Shown here one piece after another: positions 1,905 through 26,331 of a stretch of DNA of 27,155 nt. The DNA lies in the IMG/VR virus record IMGVR_UViG_3300037189_019103, positions 1 to 27,155 of that record; one strand, 5' to 3'. The notes under the pieces were generated by a model that saw nothing but the letters and a program-made list of their open reading frames with translations, ran no database searches and was not told where the DNA came from. Positions within the stretch are counted from its first letter, which is position 1; every line of letters begins with the position of its first letter. This DNA comes from a virus. A program made the position numbers and the translations under genes.

Positions 1905-2897
1905 ATGAATTATCACGACGCTAAAAGATTTATGAATAATTACACTTTTAAGGTGAATAATAAAAACACCTGTAATGATGTAATGAAAAGAAAGGGATTG
2001 GAATATGACCAATGGATAAAACATTCTATAAATGAAAAATTTGGTCTTAAAGATAAAGACGGTCGTTGGTGTTGGAGAAATACAATAAACACCCATCCGT
2101 ATTGTTTTCTTGAATTATATAAAATTTCACAAGAATTAGGATATGATGAAATTGATTTTTTTGATGAATCTAACCAACTTGAGAATATTAAAAAGTTATG
2201 GAGTTGGTTAGAAAGTAATTGGGAGTTAATTTTTACAGATAATATCGAATCTAAATATTTCTACAGATTAATGTTTTTAACTAATAAATCTTGGTCAGTA
2301 GGTCAAATTACCACTATTGCATTTTTATACACTTTTAGAGAAATATTTGAAGATAAGGAATTTAAAAAAATTAATTTTTCATTAGAAAGAGGAGATTTAT
2401 TAGATTTTGTTGGTATTGATATTAAAATAATAACAAAGGAAAACGAAGAAATAACCATTCAAGTTAAGAACGGTAAATTTACTGAAAGAAATTCTAATTA
2501 CGAAATAAGTAGTTCAGTTAATGATTTAAAATCTATTGCAACTCATTATTGTTTCGTTAACATACAAGAAGATGAAACAAAAATCATAGTATTTAAAAAT
2601 GAAAAAAAACAAATATTAGAATATTTTAATTCCTATACTTTTGAAAAAGAATTATTAATAAATAAACCAATAACAAAAAATATGATTATACCACAAAAAC
2701 TACACGAAATGTTAATATTTTGTGCTGAAAATAAAATAGTATTTGATTTAAAAAATAAAGAAGGTGAAGAAAATAATATTTCTTGGTCACTAAGTCCTGA
2801 AAAAATAGTAACCGTAACAATTGGAGACTTTAAGGAAGAAAATTTGGGTAATTACATATCAACAAAATTAGATGAATTAAAAGAGGCTCTTAAGTAA
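1905..2897 (+). CDS. Putative PD-(D/E)XK-type nuclease (tentative)
   Basis: A 330-residue protein starting MNYHDAKRF. I chose the ATG at 1905 because the open frame continues upstream only by running antisense through the neck gene, and because a TATATTTG promoter box lies directly before it. The N-terminal half is helical and rich in Trp and aromatic residues. Residues 161-190 hold the key pattern: RGDLLDFVGIDI (162-173), a short turn, then ITIQVKNGKF (183-192). This strand-turn-strand with D164/D167 and Q186-x-K188 resembles a PD-(D/E)XK nuclease core in which Gln replaces the usual Glu. The remainder is alpha/beta with no motif I recognise. The gene converges on the SNF2 helicase with a 21-nt overlap of 3' ends, consistent with a recombination or repair module. 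It could instead be a non-nuclease protein of unknown function. Confidence 0.4.
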   Translation: MNYHDAKRFMNNYTFKVNNKNTCNDVMKRKGLEYDQWIKHSINEKFGLKDKDGRWCWRNTINTHPYCFLELYKISQELGYDEIDFFDESNQLENIKKLWSWLESNWELIFTDNIESKYFYRLMFLTNKSWSVGQITTIAFLYTFREIFEDKEFKKINFSLERGDLLDFVGIDIKIITKENEEITIQVKNGKFTERNSNYEISSSVNDLKSIATHYCFVNIQEDETKIIVFKNEKKQILEYFNSYTFEKELLINKPITKNMIIPQKLHEMLIFCAENKIVFDLKNKEGEENNISWSLSPEKIVTVTIGDFKEENLGNYISTKLDELKEALK

Positions 2898-5729
2898 TGT
2901 ATTAGCAAAACTTTCACCATATTCACCATCACCCATAACTTGATCAATAATGTTTTTCTTTTTTTGTAAAATATTATAAACAATCATTTCAATAGTATTT
3001 TCAAAAACAGGATAATAAACTAATACACTATTTTTTTGACCGTATCTGTAAGCCCTATCTTCTGCTTGTGAATGGTCTGAAGGTACAAATGATAAGTCGT
3101 TCATTATAACCACCTCAGCTGCTGTTAATGTAATTCCAACACCACCAGCTTTAATATTTGATATGAATATTTTTGTTTTGTCATCATTTTGAAATTTATC
3201 CACACTTTGTTGTCTTTTTTCTTTTGACATTCTACCATCAAGAATTACCGAATTTTTTTTATACTTTTCATGTAACATATCTAAACTTGATGTGAAATTC
3301 GTAAATACAATAACTTTTTTTCCTTGTTCAATAACTTTATCAATTAACTCGCAAGTATATGGTACTTTTTCAAATGCAATGACTTGTCTTAATTTCATTA
3401 AACGATTTATTGTAACCGTTAAAGATTCTTTATTCCTATTATCTTTTGAAATTCGTATAAAATCTTCTAATTCATCACTATAAAACGTACTAGTTAAATC
3501 TAAAAATATTGGACTAACCATCTTTTCAGGTAAATCAAGAATATCTGTTTTCATTCTTCTTAGAACAATATTTTTAGTTCTTTCTCTAAGTTCATCTAAA
3601 TTAGATGAACCATTCGTATTCCATATTTTTTTACCCCCAACTTTAAATTGATATCCCGCACAATATCTTTTCACATAACCTTGCCAATTTAACGCAATTG
3701 GTGAATCAACTATTTTTAATAAATTATAATAGTTGATAGGTCTTGATGTCATTGGTGTTCCTGTTAATAACCAAACTTTGGGGATATTCTTAACCAAATC
3801 ATTAATCAATTTAGTTCTTTGTGCCGTCGGATTTGAAATATAATGTGCCTCGTCAATAATAACTAAATCAAATTTTTCATTTTCAATTAACTTATATGAT
3901 TCAATATTTTCCGTCTTTTCCATACTATGATAATTTTTTAAAATATCATAATTAATAATATAAAAATCAAAAGTTGGTTCCCAATTTTTACCTTCTACAA
4001 TTAATATATTTTTATCGGAATAATTTTTTATTTCTCTATACCAATTTATTTTTAATGATGATGGACAAATAATTAAAACTTTCTTTGATTCACTCTCTAA
4101 TGAGGCTATAATAGCAGATGTGGTATTATGTGTAACAATACAATGTTCTGCAACATATAACTTATCAGGTGCGTCAACGGATATACATACCGTATTTTCC
4201 TTACCAATTTTTTCTATATTTTTAATATATCTACCTGTTGGATATTTTTGAGGTTCATTATATCTTTCTGACTTTCGTTTTAAACGAAACGGATTCATTC
4301 CTGATGGTAATTTTATATTTACACGATAAGATATTGAACATTCCACACGTTTACCATCTTTTTTATAATAACTTCTTCTTGATTTTTTTCTTGCGATTCC
4401 ACCTAGTGTTTGAACGATTTCACACACATCATCGCATAATTTTTCAGAAATTGTTGAATATTCAGTTGAATGGAAAGTACCATTTTTAGAAAATGAACAA
4501 TGACCGTCTGTGTCCATCAAACCTTGTAATATTGCAAGTCGGTTCTCAATGGAGGAATATTTATATATCTCAGGTATAAATTTATTATAAGAACGAGATT
4601 CTAATAATCCAATTTTATCAATATTTTCACCTAAAAAAATTTTACCACCCTTTAAATTTGGTTTGGTTTTTAAAGGTATTAAATTATAATTACCAAATAA
4701 TTCATCATAATCATCTTGATGTACCACAAATACACATTTTTCTTTCTTAAAATGTCCATCACCAAGACACAGACCAAGTAAATATGGTTCTATCGGTAAT
4801 TCGTTATCATTATTAAATTCTATTGGTTTTACAATCGGAATCTGCCATTTGTTATTACCATTTGGAGATTTATAATAAGTTTCAATATTATAATTTTTTT
4901 CTGAATTATATCCGTCACCTTTTATCGTTATTGTTCCACCTTCAAACATTTGTTTTGTAGATAAAATTAACGATTTTTTTAATCTTTCATTTTTCCTATT
5001 TTTACCATAGTTAGGTGATGAAACCGACCATAAATGTGACCCATCAGTTACTATCTTATAACCGTCATTAAATGTGACTTCGTAAATATCTTGTTTTTTT
5101 TGAGGAAAAACACCAATTACTGTACATTGATTTCCATCAGAACCTATTATCTTATCACCAACAATTATATCCCCAATTTTTTTAGTTCCGTTTGGAGTAT
5201 ACACTAAAGTACTGATAATCAGACCTTTTCCCACGCCCATATCGTCAGCTAAAATAAATTTATTATTTGATAATAATTTTTCTATTGCTTCTTTTTGATG
5301 ATTCATGGGTGCTCTATGAGAGTAAGGTGAATAATCAATAACTCTATTTAATTTTTTCTCTTCTTGAATTATAGCAAATTTTGGTAACCATATTGCGTAA
5401 TTATTTTGATTTTCATTTAATTTACCCCATATATGATAAGCATTATCACTTTCACATAATAATTTTTCACACCAAATTTTTTCAGGTAATGAAGATAAGT
5501 TTTTATCTTTCATTAAAGTCTCAGCAAAATTCTTGGTAATTGTAATATGTTTTTTAGCTATTTTTGGTACAACATTATAATATTTTATAACATATTCAGA
5601 TTGTGTTCTTGTTAAATTATATTTTACATTAGTAACCATTTTTAGTTTCCAATCTAATATTTGATTGTTAAATCCTTCATATTTTAACAATAATTCTCTT
5701 GCTTCTTTTTCAGGTATTATATTCTCCAT
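2877..5729 (-). CDS. SNF2-family DNA helicase/translocase interrupted by an intein
   Basis: Precursor of 950 residues from the ATG at 5729 (a TTG at 5738 would add three residues, but it lies inside the promoter box). The spliced protein would be 583 residues. Visible helicase motifs: Walker A DDMGVGK followed after the intein by TTSAI, ICPSSLKINW (motif Ia region), IIDEAH (motif II), LLTGTPM (motif III), then the second RecA lobe with VFTNFTSSLDML, LDGRMSKEKRQ, NIKAGGVGITLT and QAEDRAYRYGQ (motif VI). This set is diagnostic of SNF2 enzymes, closest in feel to short SMARCAL1/HepA-like annealing helicases. In T4-type phages such enzymes remodel forks or recombination intermediates. The gene points away from the tail block, has its own host-like promoter, and overlaps the putative nuclease gene at the 3' end. 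Helicase identity is firm; the exact role is inferred. Confidence 0.9.
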   Translation of the reverse strand: MENIIPEKEARELLLKYEGFNNQILDWKLKMVTNVKYNLTRTQSEYVIKYYNVVPKIAKKHITITKNFAETLMKDKNLSSLPEKIWCEKLLCESDNAYHIWGKLNENQNNYAIWLPKFAIIQEEKKLNRVIDYSPYSHRAPMNHQKEAIEKLLSNNKFILADDMGVGKGLIISTLVYTPNGTKKIGDIIVGDKIIGSDGNQCTVIGVFPQKKQDIYEVTFNDGYKIVTDGSHLWSVSSPNYGKNRKNERLKKSLILSTKQMFEGGTITIKGDGYNSEKNYNIETYYKSPNGNNKWQIPIVKPIEFNNDNELPIEPYLLGLCLGDGHFKKEKCVFVVHQDDYDELFGNYNLIPLKTKPNLKGGKIFLGENIDKIGLLESRSYNKFIPEIYKYSSIENRLAILQGLMDTDGHCSFSKNGTFHSTEYSTISEKLCDDVCEIVQTLGGIARKKSRRSYYKKDGKRVECSISYRVNIKLPSGMNPFRLKRKSERYNEPQKYPTGRYIKNIEKIGKENTVCISVDAPDKLYVAEHCIVTHNTTSAIIASLESESKKVLIICPSSLKINWYREIKNYSDKNILIVEGKNWEPTFDFYIINYDILKNYHSMEKTENIESYKLIENEKFDLVIIDEAHYISNPTAQRTKLINDLVKNIPKVWLLTGTPMTSRPINYYNLLKIVDSPIALNWQGYVKRYCAGYQFKVGGKKIWNTNGSSNLDELRERTKNIVLRRMKTDILDLPEKMVSPIFLDLTSTFYSDELEDFIRISKDNRNKESLTVTINRLMKLRQVIAFEKVPYTCELIDKVIEQGKKVIVFTNFTSSLDMLHEKYKKNSVILDGRMSKEKRQQSVDKFQNDDKTKIFISNIKAGGVGITLTAAEVVIMNDLSFVPSDHSQAEDRAYRYGQKNSVLVYYPVFENTIEMIVYNILQKKKNIIDQVMGDGEYGESFANTLLKSLF
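4125..5225 (-). mobile_element. Class 3-type intein with LAGLIDADG homing endonuclease
   Basis: A 367-residue insertion between GVGK and TTSAI of the Walker A motif. Intein residue 1 is Gly, not Cys/Ser/Ala, followed by STLVYTPNG (block A). Block B has HLW with H64 and W66. Block F has C347 in VCISVDAPDKLYVAEH. The C-terminus is THN with His366 and Asn367, and the +1 extein residue is Thr. Trp in block B, Cys in block F and +1 Thr are the WCT signature of class 3 inteins, which lack an N-terminal nucleophile. The Deinococcus radiodurans Snf2 intein is a known class 3 example in a related host protein. Between the splicing blocks lie LLGLCLGDG (149-157) and LQGLMDTDG (233-241), the two LAGLIDADG motifs with acidic D156 and D240, so the homing endonuclease looks intact. 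Confidence 0.9.
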
Positions 5730-5735
5730 ACAACA

Positions 5736-5767
5736 CAAATATACTTAAAAATTTTTTAATAACAAAA
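5736..5767 (-). promoter_or_regulatory. Bacteroidota-type promoter for the SNF2 helicase
   Basis: On the minus strand TTTTG (5767-5763) is followed by 19 nt and then TATATTTG (5743-5736). This fits the -33 TTTG / -7 TAnnTTTG arrangement of Bacteroidota housekeeping promoters. The ATG at 5729 is six bases past the box, so the transcript would be leaderless or nearly so. Confidence 0.6.
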
Positions 5768-10882: not shown

Positions 10883-11371
10883 ATGGCAGACTTACTAATG
10901 AAAATGCCGGTTCCATATGAGCCGAAAAGACAAAATAGATTTATTCTTCGTTTCCCATCTAGTTTGGGTATAAATGAATGGTATGTATCATCTGCGGCTA
11001 GACCTAGTGCAAAAATTAATTCAGTTGAAATTCCTTTTTTAAATACTTCAACTTATGTTGCCGGAAGATTTACTTGGAATGAAATTAGAGTTACTTTTAG
11101 AGATCCAATTGGTCCATCAGCATCACAAGCATTAATGGAATGGTTTCGTTTACATGCTGAATCAGTAACAGGTCGTATGGGATATGCGGCTGGATATAAA
11201 CAACAAGTTGAATTAGAAATGTTAGATCCAACTGGTGTTGTTGTTGAAAAGTGGATTTTAGAAGGTTGTTTTATAACTGATTTAAATTTCAACGACCTTG
11301 ATTATTCTAGAGATGAAATAGCAACTATTACGTGTTCATTAAGAATGGATAGATGTATTCAAGTGTTTTAA
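10883..11371 (+). CDS. Tail tube protein (T4 gp19-like)
   Basis: A 162-residue protein, almost exactly the length of T4 gp19 (163). Family features are clear: an N-terminal PVPYEPKRQNRFILRFP segment (9-25), VSSAARPSAKINSVEIPFLN (35-54), the hairpin FTWNEIRVTFRDPIGPSASQ (63-82) with the invariant 'W-x-x-I-x-V-x-F-x-D' strand, LMEWFRLHAE, and a C-terminal strand DEIATITCSLRMDRC. Six copies per ring stack to form the inner tube through which DNA passes, templated by the tape measure. It lies alone between a non-coding array and a hairpin terminator, which may give high, independent expression. Confidence 0.95.
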   Translation: MADLLMKMPVPYEPKRQNRFILRFPSSLGINEWYVSSAARPSAKINSVEIPFLNTSTYVAGRFTWNEIRVTFRDPIGPSASQALMEWFRLHAESVTGRMGYAAGYKQQVELEMLDPTGVVVEKWILEGCFITDLNFNDLDYSRDEIATITCSLRMDRCIQVF

Positions 11372-11491: not shown

Positions 11492-12241
11492 ATGGAAGAA
11501 TATAAAATAGACCCTACGATTTCTTATGATATTGTTGAATTACCATCAAGAGGTATTCATTACGGGAATAAGAAAAAATCATTAAGAGTTTCGTATTTAA
11601 CTGCATCAGATGAAAACATACTGTCTGCACAAAATTTGATTGCATCAAATATGGTTGTTGATGAATTGTTAAAAAGAAAAATCTTAGATAAAGATATATC
11701 AATAGATGATATTGTTGATGAAGACAGACAAGCAATTTTATTATTTTTAAGAAATACTGCATTTGGTTCTGAGTATAACTTTTTTTTAACCGACCCAAAA
11801 ACAAATGAGGAATTTAAAGCTACAGTAGATATTAGTGAAATAAAATTAAAAGATTTCACTCTATTACCTGATGAAAATGAAGAATTTAAATATCATATGC
11901 AAAAATGTAATATTGATATTACTTTTAAATTTTTAACAAAAAAACAACAACAACAAATTAATGATATTGAAAAAAGTTGGAATGGTGTTGGTGTTGCTCC
12001 AGTTGTTACTAAACAGTTAGAAATGATGATTAAATCAGTTGCTGGAAATAGAGAAATGATGAATATTCATAATTTTATTGAAAGATTACCTATTAAAGAT
12101 TCACAGGAATTTAAGAAATATGTTAAAGATAATACTCCAGGTTTAGACCTGAAAAAAAATGTAAAATCCCCATCAGGAGAGTCCGTACAAGTTGATATTG
12201 GATTTGGGGTTGAGTTTTTTCGCCCTTTCTACGGATTATAA
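11492..12241 (+). CDS. T4 gp26/gp51-type baseplate / tail-chaperone protein, zero-frame product
   Basis: A 249-residue protein. YDIVELPSRGIHY (13-25), then LRVSYLTASDENILSAQNL (32-50), the helix VVDELLKRKILDKDISIDD (56-74), and DRQAILLFLRNTAFGSEYNF (78-97) form the pattern of the T4 baseplate protein family (gp26/gp51 type): 'ELPSKG-x-Y', 'T-A-x-x-E-D-I-L' and 'R-x-x-x-x-G-x-E-Y'. It lies between the tail tube and the tape measure, exactly where many tailed phages encode a frameshifted tail assembly chaperone pair. The last codons are GAG TTT TTT CGC before only six zero-frame residues, and a 50-residue conserved-looking tail continues in the +1 frame. The gene therefore may make a short and a long product. 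Baseplate versus chaperone role is unresolved. Confidence 0.75.
   Translation: MEEYKIDPTISYDIVELPSRGIHYGNKKKSLRVSYLTASDENILSAQNLIASNMVVDELLKRKILDKDISIDDIVDEDRQAILLFLRNTAFGSEYNFFLTDPKTNEEFKATVDISEIKLKDFTLLPDENEEFKYHMQKCNIDITFKFLTKKQQQQINDIEKSWNGVGVAPVVTKQLEMMIKSVAGNREMMNIHNFIERLPIKDSQEFKKYVKDNTPGLDLKKNVKSPSGESVQVDIGFGVEFFRPFYGL
12215..12224 (+). promoter_or_regulatory. Candidate frameshift site TTTTTTCGCC (+1 or -2)
   Basis: In the zero frame the codons read TTT TTT CGC. A +1 slip lets tRNA-Phe move from TTT to TTC and places GCC in the A site; a -2 slip reaches the same frame. CGC is a rare Arg codon in this AGA-rich genome and could stall the ribosome. The alternative is a real one-base insertion in the six-T run. 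Confidence 0.55.
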
Positions 12242-12374
12242 AAAAATACAATTAGATGAAATTTTGTTTTTGGTTAAGAAAGGTTTTGGATATAGTGACA
12301 TAATTTCAATGCCAATTTATTTACGAAGATATTATATAAATCATATTATTGATTTAGAAAATTCTTCGAAGTAA
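12222..12374 (+). CDS. +1-frame C-terminal extension of the gp26-like protein
   Basis: Fifty codons from GCC (12222) to TAA (12372-12374) encode a well-formed segment: a helix IQLDEILFLVKK, the turn GFGYSD, then MPIYLRRYYINHII. 'Gly-Phe ... hydrophobic-x-MP-x-x-x-R-x-Y' is the kind of motif seen at the end of phage tail chaperone and gp26-type proteins. No convincing start codon or leader exists for an independent gene (only TTG codons inside the upstream gene), so it is best read as the extension made by frameshifting, giving a fusion of about 293 residues. It ends 20 nt before the tape measure start. A broken gene caused by an indel is the main alternative. Confidence 0.6.
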   Translation, partial: ALSTDYKKIQLDEILFLVKKGFGYSDIISMPIYLRRYYINHIIDLENSSK

Positions 12375-12394: not shown

Positions 12395-14266
12395 ATGGCT
12401 AGATCGATAAATGAATTTATAAAAATCGCAGAAAAAAGTGGTGGAAATGTTGATAAGTATTTTGATTTAGCTAAACCTGTTAAAGAGGATGAAGTAAAGT
12501 ATTTTATTAAAGCATTTGATGATGTTTATGATACTGATACCGATACTACTACAAATAAAAAACCATCTAATTTTAAAGAAAAACTTAAAGAAGGGTCACG
12601 TGATCTTTTAAATCAAGCAGCAAATATACAATCATTTGGTTCAGAGGTTATATCATATAATTCCCCACTTAAAGAAGGTGGAATAATTGCTCAATCATTT
12701 AAAGGTATTTCTGATATATTATTTAGTAAAACACCAGACAAAAGTGTAGGTTCAGTAATTGGAGATATGTTAAGTAGTGCGGTTGGTAACGTTCTTGAAG
12801 GTGGTATAGATATTTTAAAAAAAGAAGTTGAATTAAGAAATAAAATAAATGCAGAAATAGGGATTGGTGGTGAATTATCAAGAGGTTTAAGAAGTGAAAT
12901 ACTTGAATCATTACCTGTGGTAGAAGGTATGGGATTTGGTTTCGAAGATATTGGAAACGCTATTGTAACAACAATGAAAGAGACTGGTCGTTTTTCATTG
13001 ATGAATCAAGAAACAATGGAAAAAATGGCAGTAACATCAAGGGCGTTTACTGGTGATATGGAAAAAACCGCATTATTATTAAGGAATTTTGAATTAATTG
13101 GTGTGGGCGCTGAAAGTGCTCTTGAAGGTGTAAATAAAATCGGTCAATCGTCATTAAATATTGGATTACAATCTAGAAAAGTTGTTGCTGAAACTCAAAC
13201 AAATTTAAATAAAATAAATCAATATGGTTTTGAGAATGGAGTGAATGGTCTTAGTAGAATGGTTCAAAAATCTATTGAATTTAGAATCTCAATGGATTCT
13301 GCATTTCAATTAGCAGATAAAGTATTTAGTCCGGAAGGGGCAATAGAATTATCGGCTAATTTACAGGCAATTGGTGGTGCTATTGGTGATTTAAATGATC
13401 CATTAAAATTGATGTATATGGCAACTAATAATGTCGAAGGATTACAAGACGCAATAATCGGTGTTGCAGGTTCATTAGCAACATATAATGTAGAACAAGG
13501 TAGGTTTGAAATAACAGGAATTAATTTAAGAAGGGCAAAAGATTTAGCAGGTGACTTAGGTATTAGTTATGACCAATTAGCAAATACTGCAATTGCTGCA
13601 GCAGAAAGATCATCCGCAGCCGTTGATTTATTATCAAGTGGTTTACAGTTAGAAGATAAAGAAAAAGAATTTCTAACTAACATATCTAGAATGGAGGGTG
13701 GTAAAATGATTATTGATGTACCAAAATCATTAGCTAAAGAATTAGGTCTTGACCAAACAAGAATTGCGTTAGATAACTTAGATCAAAATACCGCAAACGC
13801 TCTTTTATCTAATCAAAAATATTTTGAAAAATTATCACCAGAAGAAATTGCCAGAGAACAATATAGTGAAACACAGAAATTAGAACTTAGTGTACGTGAA
13901 ATTGCAACAATGTTAAAAGTTAGATTTGCTTCAACCATAAGAAAACCATTATCAAAAATAGATGATTACTTAAAAGAAGTTAATAATTATATTAACCCAT
14001 CAGATAATAAAGTAACTAGTTTTGATTCTGCATTAGATTTAATTAGAAATGATCACGACAAACAAGCTAACGATTATATAAAAAATATGAACCAATCATC
14101 TAGTGATTCTAAATTAACAATAGACCATAAATTTAGTTTTAATAATGTTAATAGTGACGAATTAGTTAGAATACTTATGAATAATCCACAATTTGTTCAA
14201 TTATTTAATGATAGAATAAAGAAAAATATGAACCAAGGTACCGGTGGTGGGTATAGTGGTTTTTAA
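12395..14266 (+). CDS. Tape measure protein (T4 gp29-like role)
   Basis: A 623-residue, largely helical protein, close to T4 gp29 (590). The N-terminus is charged and Asp/Thr-rich (about 40-60). Residues about 85-180 hold Gly/Ala/Ile-rich segments (SAVGNVLEGGIDIL, GMGFGFEDIGNAIV). The middle is a long stretch of amphipathic helices rich in Ala, Gln, Asn and Ser (for example AESALEGVNKIGQSS and ANLQAIGGAIGDL), and the end is Gly-rich (GTGGGYSGF). No enzymatic motif or lysozyme domain is visible. Position directly after the tube and chaperone genes and before the baseplate genes is the standard tape measure position. If length scales as in other phages, the tail should be similar to that of T4. 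The call rests on composition, size and synteny. Confidence 0.65.
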   Translation: MARSINEFIKIAEKSGGNVDKYFDLAKPVKEDEVKYFIKAFDDVYDTDTDTTTNKKPSNFKEKLKEGSRDLLNQAANIQSFGSEVISYNSPLKEGGIIAQSFKGISDILFSKTPDKSVGSVIGDMLSSAVGNVLEGGIDILKKEVELRNKINAEIGIGGELSRGLRSEILESLPVVEGMGFGFEDIGNAIVTTMKETGRFSLMNQETMEKMAVTSRAFTGDMEKTALLLRNFELIGVGAESALEGVNKIGQSSLNIGLQSRKVVAETQTNLNKINQYGFENGVNGLSRMVQKSIEFRISMDSAFQLADKVFSPEGAIELSANLQAIGGAIGDLNDPLKLMYMATNNVEGLQDAIIGVAGSLATYNVEQGRFEITGINLRRAKDLAGDLGISYDQLANTAIAAAERSSAAVDLLSSGLQLEDKEKEFLTNISRMEGGKMIIDVPKSLAKELGLDQTRIALDNLDQNTANALLSNQKYFEKLSPEEIAREQYSETQKLELSVREIATMLKVRFASTIRKPLSKIDDYLKEVNNYINPSDNKVTSFDSALDLIRNDHDKQANDYIKNMNQSSSDSKLTIDHKFSFNNVNSDELVRILMNNPQFVQLFNDRIKKNMNQGTGGGYSGF

Positions 14267-25331: not shown

Positions 25332-25973
25332 ATGAAACTAGAAAAAAAATTATTAGAAGAAGTTGCAAGGTTCAATCAAATTAATAAGTATGCTAAAAAA
25401 CTTATGAATGAACAAGAATTACCTTTACCTGGTGCTGAAGAAACACCACCGGCTGACGCTCCACCAATGGGAGGAGAAATACCGCCATCTGACGTACCTC
25501 CAATGGGAGGTGAAACACCACCTGCAGATGTTGCACCATTACCCGATTCAAATACAGAAGAAATAGATATTACCGATTTAGTAAATATAACTAAATCCAT
25601 TAAAAAAGATGTTGAAGACAGTAAAACTGAACATTCAGGTGTTTTAGGTAAAATGGACGATGTATTTAGTAAACTTGATGAATTAGAATCTAAATTAGCA
25701 AATATGGATAATATCATATCTAAAATTGATGAATTAGGTTCAAAGATTCAACAAATAAAAGAACCGACACCACAAGAGAAACTTGAAATGCGTTCTTTAG
25801 ATTCATATCCATTTAATCAAAACCCACAACAATTCTTCTCACAAAAACAAGGAGAAATGAGAACATCAGGAAAAAATGAATATGTTTTAACAAAAGATGA
25901 TATTCAAAATTATTCACAAGAAACGATAAGAGATACATTTAACATTCAAGATGAAGATGAATTTAAGTTCTAA
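25332..25973 (+). CDS. Proline-rich repeat and coiled-coil protein, possible prohead or virion protein
   Basis: A 213-residue acidic protein in four parts: a basic amphipathic N-terminus (MKLEKKLLEEVARFN, then YAKKLMNEQE); three imperfect PPAD/PPSD repeats with PPMGGE (about residues 38-70); a coiled-coil region with regular hydrophobic spacing (about 80-140: ITKSIKKDVEDSK, VFSKLDELESKLANMDNII, ISKIDELGSKIQQIK); and a polar tail ending NIQDEDEFKF. Such highly charged, low-complexity, coiled-coil proteins are typical of phage core or scaffold proteins, but no family is recognisable. Its N-terminal 'Y-x-x-K-K-L-M' resembles that of the ADP-ribosyltransferase-like protein. The repeats are also direct DNA repeats. 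Confidence 0.6.
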   Translation: MKLEKKLLEEVARFNQINKYAKKLMNEQELPLPGAEETPPADAPPMGGEIPPSDVPPMGGETPPADVAPLPDSNTEEIDITDLVNITKSIKKDVEDSKTEHSGVLGKMDDVFSKLDELESKLANMDNIISKIDELGSKIQQIKEPTPQEKLEMRSLDSYPFNQNPQQFFSQKQGEMRTSGKNEYVLTKDDIQNYSQETIRDTFNIQDEDEFKF

Positions 25974-26331
25974 AGTAAATTTTTTATTGGGTCTCCATAC
26001 TCAATTAAAAATAAATCATTGGCAGACCAAAGGATTAGGTAGACATTTAGCCTTTGGTGATACATATTCTAAATTAACAGATTTGATAGATAACTTTGTT
26101 GAAGTTTCTATGGGAAAATATGGTAGATTTAGTTTAGATGATGAAACCAATCAGATAAAACTTATTAATTTATCTGAAATGAATCCAAAAAATATGATTT
26201 CTGTTTGTATTGAAGCGTTGATTGAATTTTCAGGTGATTTAGATCCTGAAAAAGATAGTGACTTATTAAATATAAGAGATGAAATAATGTCTTCATTAAA
26301 TCAACTATTATATCTTCTCACATTAGAATAA
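25951..26331 (+). CDS. Dps/ferritin-like small protein (possible ferroxidase)
   Basis: A 126-residue helical protein. The first helix reads VNFLLGLHTQLKINHWQTKG, followed by RHLAFGDTYSKLTDLIDNFVE. The residues H23, H32, D47 and E51 are placed as in Dps proteins: His to Asp spacing 15 and Asp to Glu spacing 4 equal those of E. coli Dps (H63, D78, E82); the first His-His gap is 9 instead of 12. 'HWQTKG-x-x-x-H-x-A-F-G-x-x-Y' is also the signature of a phage domain family of unknown function that looks ferritin-like. It is shorter than Dps (about 167). The ATG overlaps the preceding gene by 23 nt; a second Met at residue 3 is possible. It may bind iron or DNA, or only keep the fold. It ends 32 nt before a terminator. 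Confidence 0.6.
   Translation: MKMNLSSKVNFLLGLHTQLKINHWQTKGLGRHLAFGDTYSKLTDLIDNFVEVSMGKYGRFSLDDETNQIKLINLSEMNPKNMISVCIEALIEFSGDLDPEKDSDLLNIRDEIMSSLNQLLYLLTLE

Follow-up and report, generated by a model that had tools for sequence, protein, structure and literature searches.

The gp26-like gene that lies between the tail tube gene and the presumed tape measure gene of this virus probably makes a short and a long tail-assembly chaperone through a +1 frameshift at a conserved TTTTTTCGC site. By the window we mean the whole stretch of DNA that was analyzed, which is the entire virus record of 27,155 bases; its relevant features are listed in Table 1. The original prediction of a programmed frameshift in this gene is supported by what is seen in the sequences: the frames and the site are conserved, the extension is under selection, and the protein is homologous to gp26 and gp51 of T4. 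We judge the programmed frameshift to be real, most likely to run in the +1 direction, and to yield the long form of a T4-type chaperone.

Table 1. Features of the window at and around the putative frameshift site.
Feature	Position	Strand	Basis
Tail tube protein (gp19-like), upstream neighbour	10883..11371	+	phrog_4542 tail tube, E=6.6e-29; PF06841 just under the cut-off
Zero-frame ORF, gp26-like, short form (TAC-N / gpG-like), 249 aa	11492..12241	+	PF12322, phrog_150, AlphaFold2 model
Candidate 5' RNA element	12167..12210	+	Synonymous-site conservation, pairing
Shift site TTT TTT CGC	12215..12223	+	T6-C invariance, locus census
+1-frame extension (TAC-C / gpT-like), 50 aa plus TAA	12222..12374	+	Frame conservation, dN/dS, gp51 homology
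Presumed tape measure protein, 623 aa, downstream neighbour	12395..14266	+	Position only; immuto annotation

The gp26-like gene and its overlapping frame

Around the site, the window reads ...TTT GGG GTT GAG TTT TTT CGC CCT TTC TAC GGA TTA TAA. The stop of the zero frame (12239-12241) is separated from CGC by five sense codons. If TTTC (12218-12221) is read as one step, the product is a protein of 293 aa (243 + 50 residues) that ends at the TAA at 12372-12374 and has residues 1-243 in common with the short form. The +1 frame stays open for 43 codons past the zero-frame stop, which has a chance of about 0.006 at the composition of the window.

The zero-frame ORF matches PF12322 (T4_baseplate, E=6.5e-9, 36.2 bits, above the curated cut-off of 24.5) and phrog_150 (baseplate hub, E=1.8e-10), and once the two frames are joined, the latter match reaches profile position 264 instead of 233. 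The AlphaFold2 model covers the zero-frame part only (pLDDT 87.4, pTM 0.81) and resembles predicted models of gp26-like or T4-like hub-assembly proteins in fold comparison. No solved structure was matched by sequence search, and none significantly by fold search with the zero-frame model; the HK97 tail assembly chaperone 2ob9 came up by fold at a non-significant E=1.8.

The position of the gene is that of the G/GT pairs of tailed phages, between the tube gene, identified by profile, and the tape measure gene, identified by its position and by phage immuto, where the gene at the matching place is annotated as tail tape measure protein. Family searches with the tape measure candidate of the window itself returned no match. 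As in G/GT genes, the upstream ORF ends after the slip site and is overlapped by a conserved frame lacking a start. This arrangement and the gp26/gp51 homology support the predicted G/GT-type chaperone role, which we infer from sequence. Elsewhere in the window, an SNF2-type helicase gene (2877-5738, minus strand) has its Walker A region interrupted by an intein-like insert with homing-endonuclease matches (PF14528, PF05204) and a weak Hint match (PF05203). At the end of the structural cluster, a small DUF5856 protein (25951-26331, plus strand; PF19174, E=3e-15) carries an annotation without function.

To find relatives, we searched with patterns that left out the shift site itself, and 57 were returned. 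T6-C (TTTTTTC), with GGGGT just upstream, is kept in every one of them whose contig spans the site. The original prediction had suggested comparing homologs for conservation of T6-CGC: T6-C is indeed invariant in window-type loci, but CGA, CGT, and CTC also occur at the position of CGC. A complete extension of 49-51 aa, with the consensus FALSTDYKK.QLDEILFLVKRGFSYGDIL.MPVYIRRYYI, is present in all site-spanning relatives but one, whose contig ends early. At around 30% identity, the same layout was found in three sequenced phages that are more divergent, namely Flavobacterium phage immuto, Microcystis phage Mel-JY01, and the uncultured phage LR756508. The claim that the overlapping +1 frame adds 50 residues was borne out by the 293-aa fusion. 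Among the matches listed, it was the +1 frame that best matched the extension profile in all 213 testable loci. In 38 non-identical window-type sequences, the median dN/dS of the extension is 0.13, versus 1.05 and 1.44 for the other two frames of the same region, and that of the zero-frame body is 0.18. The codons of the slip site show strong conservation at synonymous positions in every group.

Annotation of the gene in relatives is uneven. In immuto and Mel-JY01, small annotated CDS (L059 6854-6964; L060 6776-7012) use the +1 frame and correspond to parts of the extension, and in environmental phage genomes of this group the long form is mis-annotated or overlooked.

Site and probable direction of the shift

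Among the matches listed, a census of 212 loci gave TTT TTT TGG CCT in 114, TTT TTT CGC CCT in 47, and TTT CTT TGG CCT in 35, plus minor forms that include TTT CTA TGG (4 loci); the overall pattern is TTT YTN TGG/CGN CCT. Both site codons are TTT in all window-type loci, versus 70-78% TTT elsewhere. The extension lies in the +1 (= -2) frame, unlike the -1 frame to which a canonical in-phase heptamer (X XXY YYZ) gives access. All census sites permit re-pairing of the first codon at +1 (UUU to UUY, or CUU to UUU). A ribosomal shift of -2, in which tRNA-Phe would move two bases backwards along the T run to give EFFFALS, is the alternative with most in its favour: the T6-C site of the window and the T7 sites of most relatives would re-pair perfectly, codon 1 is nearly always TTT, and a tail gene of phage Mu uses -2 (PMC5009743). 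We nevertheless consider it unlikely, because around 40 relatives have TTT CTT or TTT CTA, where the P-site Leu tRNA cannot re-pair at -2, whereas these sites do re-pair at +1. Moreover, codon 2 has changed at least six times on a FastTree tree of 162 proteins, whose branching is approximate. The two kinds of sites have thus been interchanged repeatedly and one mechanism should serve both, which points to +1. The original prediction had left the choice between +1 and -2 open; its frame was right, and the TTT CTT and TTT CTA relatives largely settle the direction for +1, with -2 still conceivable at the site of the window. Hence, a +1 slip of tRNA-Phe from UUU to UUC is the best-supported direction from the sequences.

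In such a +1 shift, CGC would wait in the A site while the peptidyl-tRNA-Phe moves from UUU (12218-12220) to UUC (12219-12221). The majority of ribosomes would terminate at 12239 and give the short form, comparable to gpG, TAC-N, or T4 gp26. A minority would enter the +1 frame, at what we expect to be low efficiency, and give the 293-aa long form (gpGT or TAC-NC), whose C-terminal domain would be the counterpart of the homologous domain in T4 gp51. If the two forms work as their lambda analogues do, the part common to both would bind the tape measure protein, while tube subunits would be recruited by the extension. The rarity of CGC, which the original prediction named as a plausible driver of the shift, is confirmed: it is used once in around 6,500 codons (12 ORFs of the window), at the shift site. 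CGC may slow the A site, but dual coding also constrains the choice of codon. We therefore rejected its rarity as proof of a slow codon, since it is partly forced by the overlapping frames and most relatives have the Trp codon TGG there. Single-sequence folds revealed no consistent 3' stimulatory structure.

Slippage of the RNA polymerase on the T run, producing mRNAs shorter by one U from which ordinary translation gives the fusion, would suit the run of 6 or 7 T found in most loci. Yet T6 is a short run for polymerase slippage, and the TTTCTTTGG and TTTCTATGG sites of some relatives have no run longer than three, so that we rejected this explanation as very improbable. It is equally hard to credit that the extension is a separate gene, started independently or by re-initiation. 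The prediction that it lacks a credible start of its own holds for many relatives, but in the window itself the +1 frame contains upstream TTG codons. Mel-JY01 is annotated with two overlapping CDS, and in cyanophages most loci have an ATG a few codons into the extension. Against this, the stretch from the upstream trans-frame stop to the site is free of ATG, GTG, and TTG in 32 of 52 window-type loci, and in 81 of the 212 loci among the matches listed. Many window-type loci have a TAG 9 nt upstream in the +1 frame, and the first ATG comes around 30 codons inside the extension. Separate genes would also leave the conservation of the slip codons unexplained. Given these upstream stops and missing start codons, an independent start was rejected, and we propose that the extension is never made by itself but always joined to residues 1-243. 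Finally, an error in sequencing or assembly, or decay of the gene, suggested by the homopolymer at the site, has a negligible probability and is refuted by the homologs: the same break recurs in 213 loci among the matches listed, from many contigs and isolates, both frames are under purifying selection, and none of the homologs compared has five T and one continuous frame, which would have spoken against the original prediction.

A candidate RNA element upstream of the site

Synonymous-site conservation peaks over a region upstream of the site that could fold into a 5' RNA element. Its outer stem pairs 12167-12172 with 12205-12210, with a core of CCCC (12168-12171) and GGGG (12206-12209), and its inner hairpin pairs 12185-12190 with 12198-12203. 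The bulge TCAGGAGA (12173-12180) contains AGGAG. The same TCAGGAGA is near-invariant in the window-type relatives (L002-L054), around 40 nt before the slip site, and is lost in L047 and L048. The third base of codon -16 (NCC) is C in 38 of 38 sequences, though the residue varies between T, A, and S and C makes up 11% elsewhere; codon -3 is GGG in 38 of 38, versus 10% elsewhere. The outer stem is also predicted by RNAalifold. Overall, 91% of the pair cells are paired, one outer pair swaps G-C for A-U, and the covariation score was attained by 3 of 500 shuffles, with four outer pairs that are invariant and thus uninformative by themselves for covariation. The element was found only in window-type relatives and not in the immuto and Mel-JY01 groups. 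Hence, it is not a general requirement for the shift.

A comparison can be made with bacterial RF2 (prfB), where a Shine-Dalgarno-like element lies 3 nt before the P-site codon. The proposed shift would share with it a forward slip on a YUU codon, and the CTT T of immuto-type sites resembles the CUU U of RF2. They differ in that the A-site codon is CGC in the window (TGG in relatives) and not a stop codon, and in that the GGGG of the window ends 8 nt before 12218, as opposed to 3 nt in RF2. One may tentatively imagine that CCCC/GGGG pairing behind the ribosome, with AGGAG in the bulge, pushes it by +1 at a slow CGC in the clade of the window, and that the same chaperone gene has switched between -1, +1, and two-gene expression around one U-rich run; we regard this as possible rather than probable. 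If true, the 5' structure would represent a novel type of stimulator for +1 shifts in bacteria.

One probable chaperone family with several proposed modes of expression

T4 gp26 (TAC-N) and gp51 (TAC-NC) belong to the same family as the window gene, since both match PF12322 and phrog_150. Residues 6-207 of gp26 align with residues 5-203 of gp51 (E=1e-23, hhalign profile comparison). Hence, gp51 is a paralogue of gp26 that carries around 46 more aa at its C-terminus. An extension in the -1 frame was found in S-SSM7, S-RIM8, Vibrio PC-Liy1, Ackermannviridae SD25, Citrobacter Ci1, and Aeromonas Asswx_1. In T4-likes with such an extension, it lies in the -1 frame in 87 of 87 loci, and T TTT TTC is present in 86 of the 87. 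When the extensions alone were compared as profiles, the -1-frame extension matched the C-terminus of gp51 (E=8e-15), and it was itself matched by the pooled extensions of the +1 frame (E=2.5e-7). The direct match of the window-type extension to gp51 is weak (P about 6e-4), and full-length profiles of the window family and gp51 likewise match too weakly to suffice alone. It is through these intermediates that sequence comparison identifies the +1 extension as homologous to the C-terminal domain of gp51.

The ways of making the two forms differ. T4 has two genes with the homologous extension in one, whereas the window type would rely on a single gene and a frameshift: one copy was found in each of the complete phages immuto and Mel-JY01, and no second long copy was seen in them. 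In Kyanoviridae, KVP40-type phages, Ackermannviridae, Asswx_1, and Ci1, the gp26 homolog ends at a T-rich slip site and the homologous extension follows in another frame, as in the window. Their small downstream gp51 ORF, however, follows the canonical T TTT TTC and uses the -1 rather than the +1 frame. The cyanophage gp26 and small gp51 (L238 1474-2384; L245-L324) probably form a single gene that is read through a -1 frameshift at T TTT TTC; two genes are annotated in the records that we looked at. The gp51 of cyanophages and marine vibriophages has been described as lacking the first 200 residues (Sullivan 2010, PMC3037559). This "truncated" gp51 is thereby explained: the missing residues, around 200, would be gp26, supplied by the frameshift. 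T4 gp51 is required yet absent from the particle, and it is listed together with gp26 among the chaperones of hub assembly (PMC3004832). Gene order also varies for the duplicated pair: gp51-like and gp26-like genes are adjacent, overlapping, and on one strand in Pseudotevenvirus EC-F2 and Klebsiella CP-p-KP-21068 (among L235 1501-2794, L236 1501-2792, and L243 679-2082), and divergent in Proteus PM2.

Among more distant systems, the gpG/gpGT pair of lambda and the pair of Mu are alike in their position between tube and tape measure genes and in having short and long forms, but lambda shifts by -1 and Mu by -2, and no sequence relationship to the window gene was shown. Tailed phages are known to use -1, -2, and +1, with T4 named as an exception (Atkins et al. 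2016). By its description, the haloarchaeal myovirus HSTV-2, an archaeal virus, likewise reaches its tail chaperone extension by a shift that is very likely +1 (PMC5009743). Papers citing Vladimirov 2022 note that the gene is present in some T4-likes as a short and a long copy, and that in T4-like TAC-N genes poly-T sites are already known to signal a -1 shift. The tie between gp26 and the chaperone role in the original prediction was right, but Vladimirov, Gautam and Davidson 2022 (Virology 566:9-15), as cited in later papers, had already proposed this role of the gp26 family for T4-likes. A function as chaperones, the -1 shift of T4-likes, and the two-gene solution of T4 are already known from that study, and we dropped the T4 gene pair as an unreported finding. 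What appears to be new is that a member of the T4 gp26 family would make the chaperone pair by a +1 shift; the candidate 5' RNA element seems so too. The abstract of the 2022 study reportedly names genes 26 and 51 and describes frameshifting as conserved in several T4-like groups.

One homologous tail chaperone would thus have three routes to its short and long forms, i.e., a +1 shift, a -1 shift, and two genes. Hence, the direction of frameshifting could evolve while the products stay. The family also offers a large natural set of +1 sites, one of them in an isolated Flavobacterium phage, for studying forward shifting without a stop codon in bacteria.
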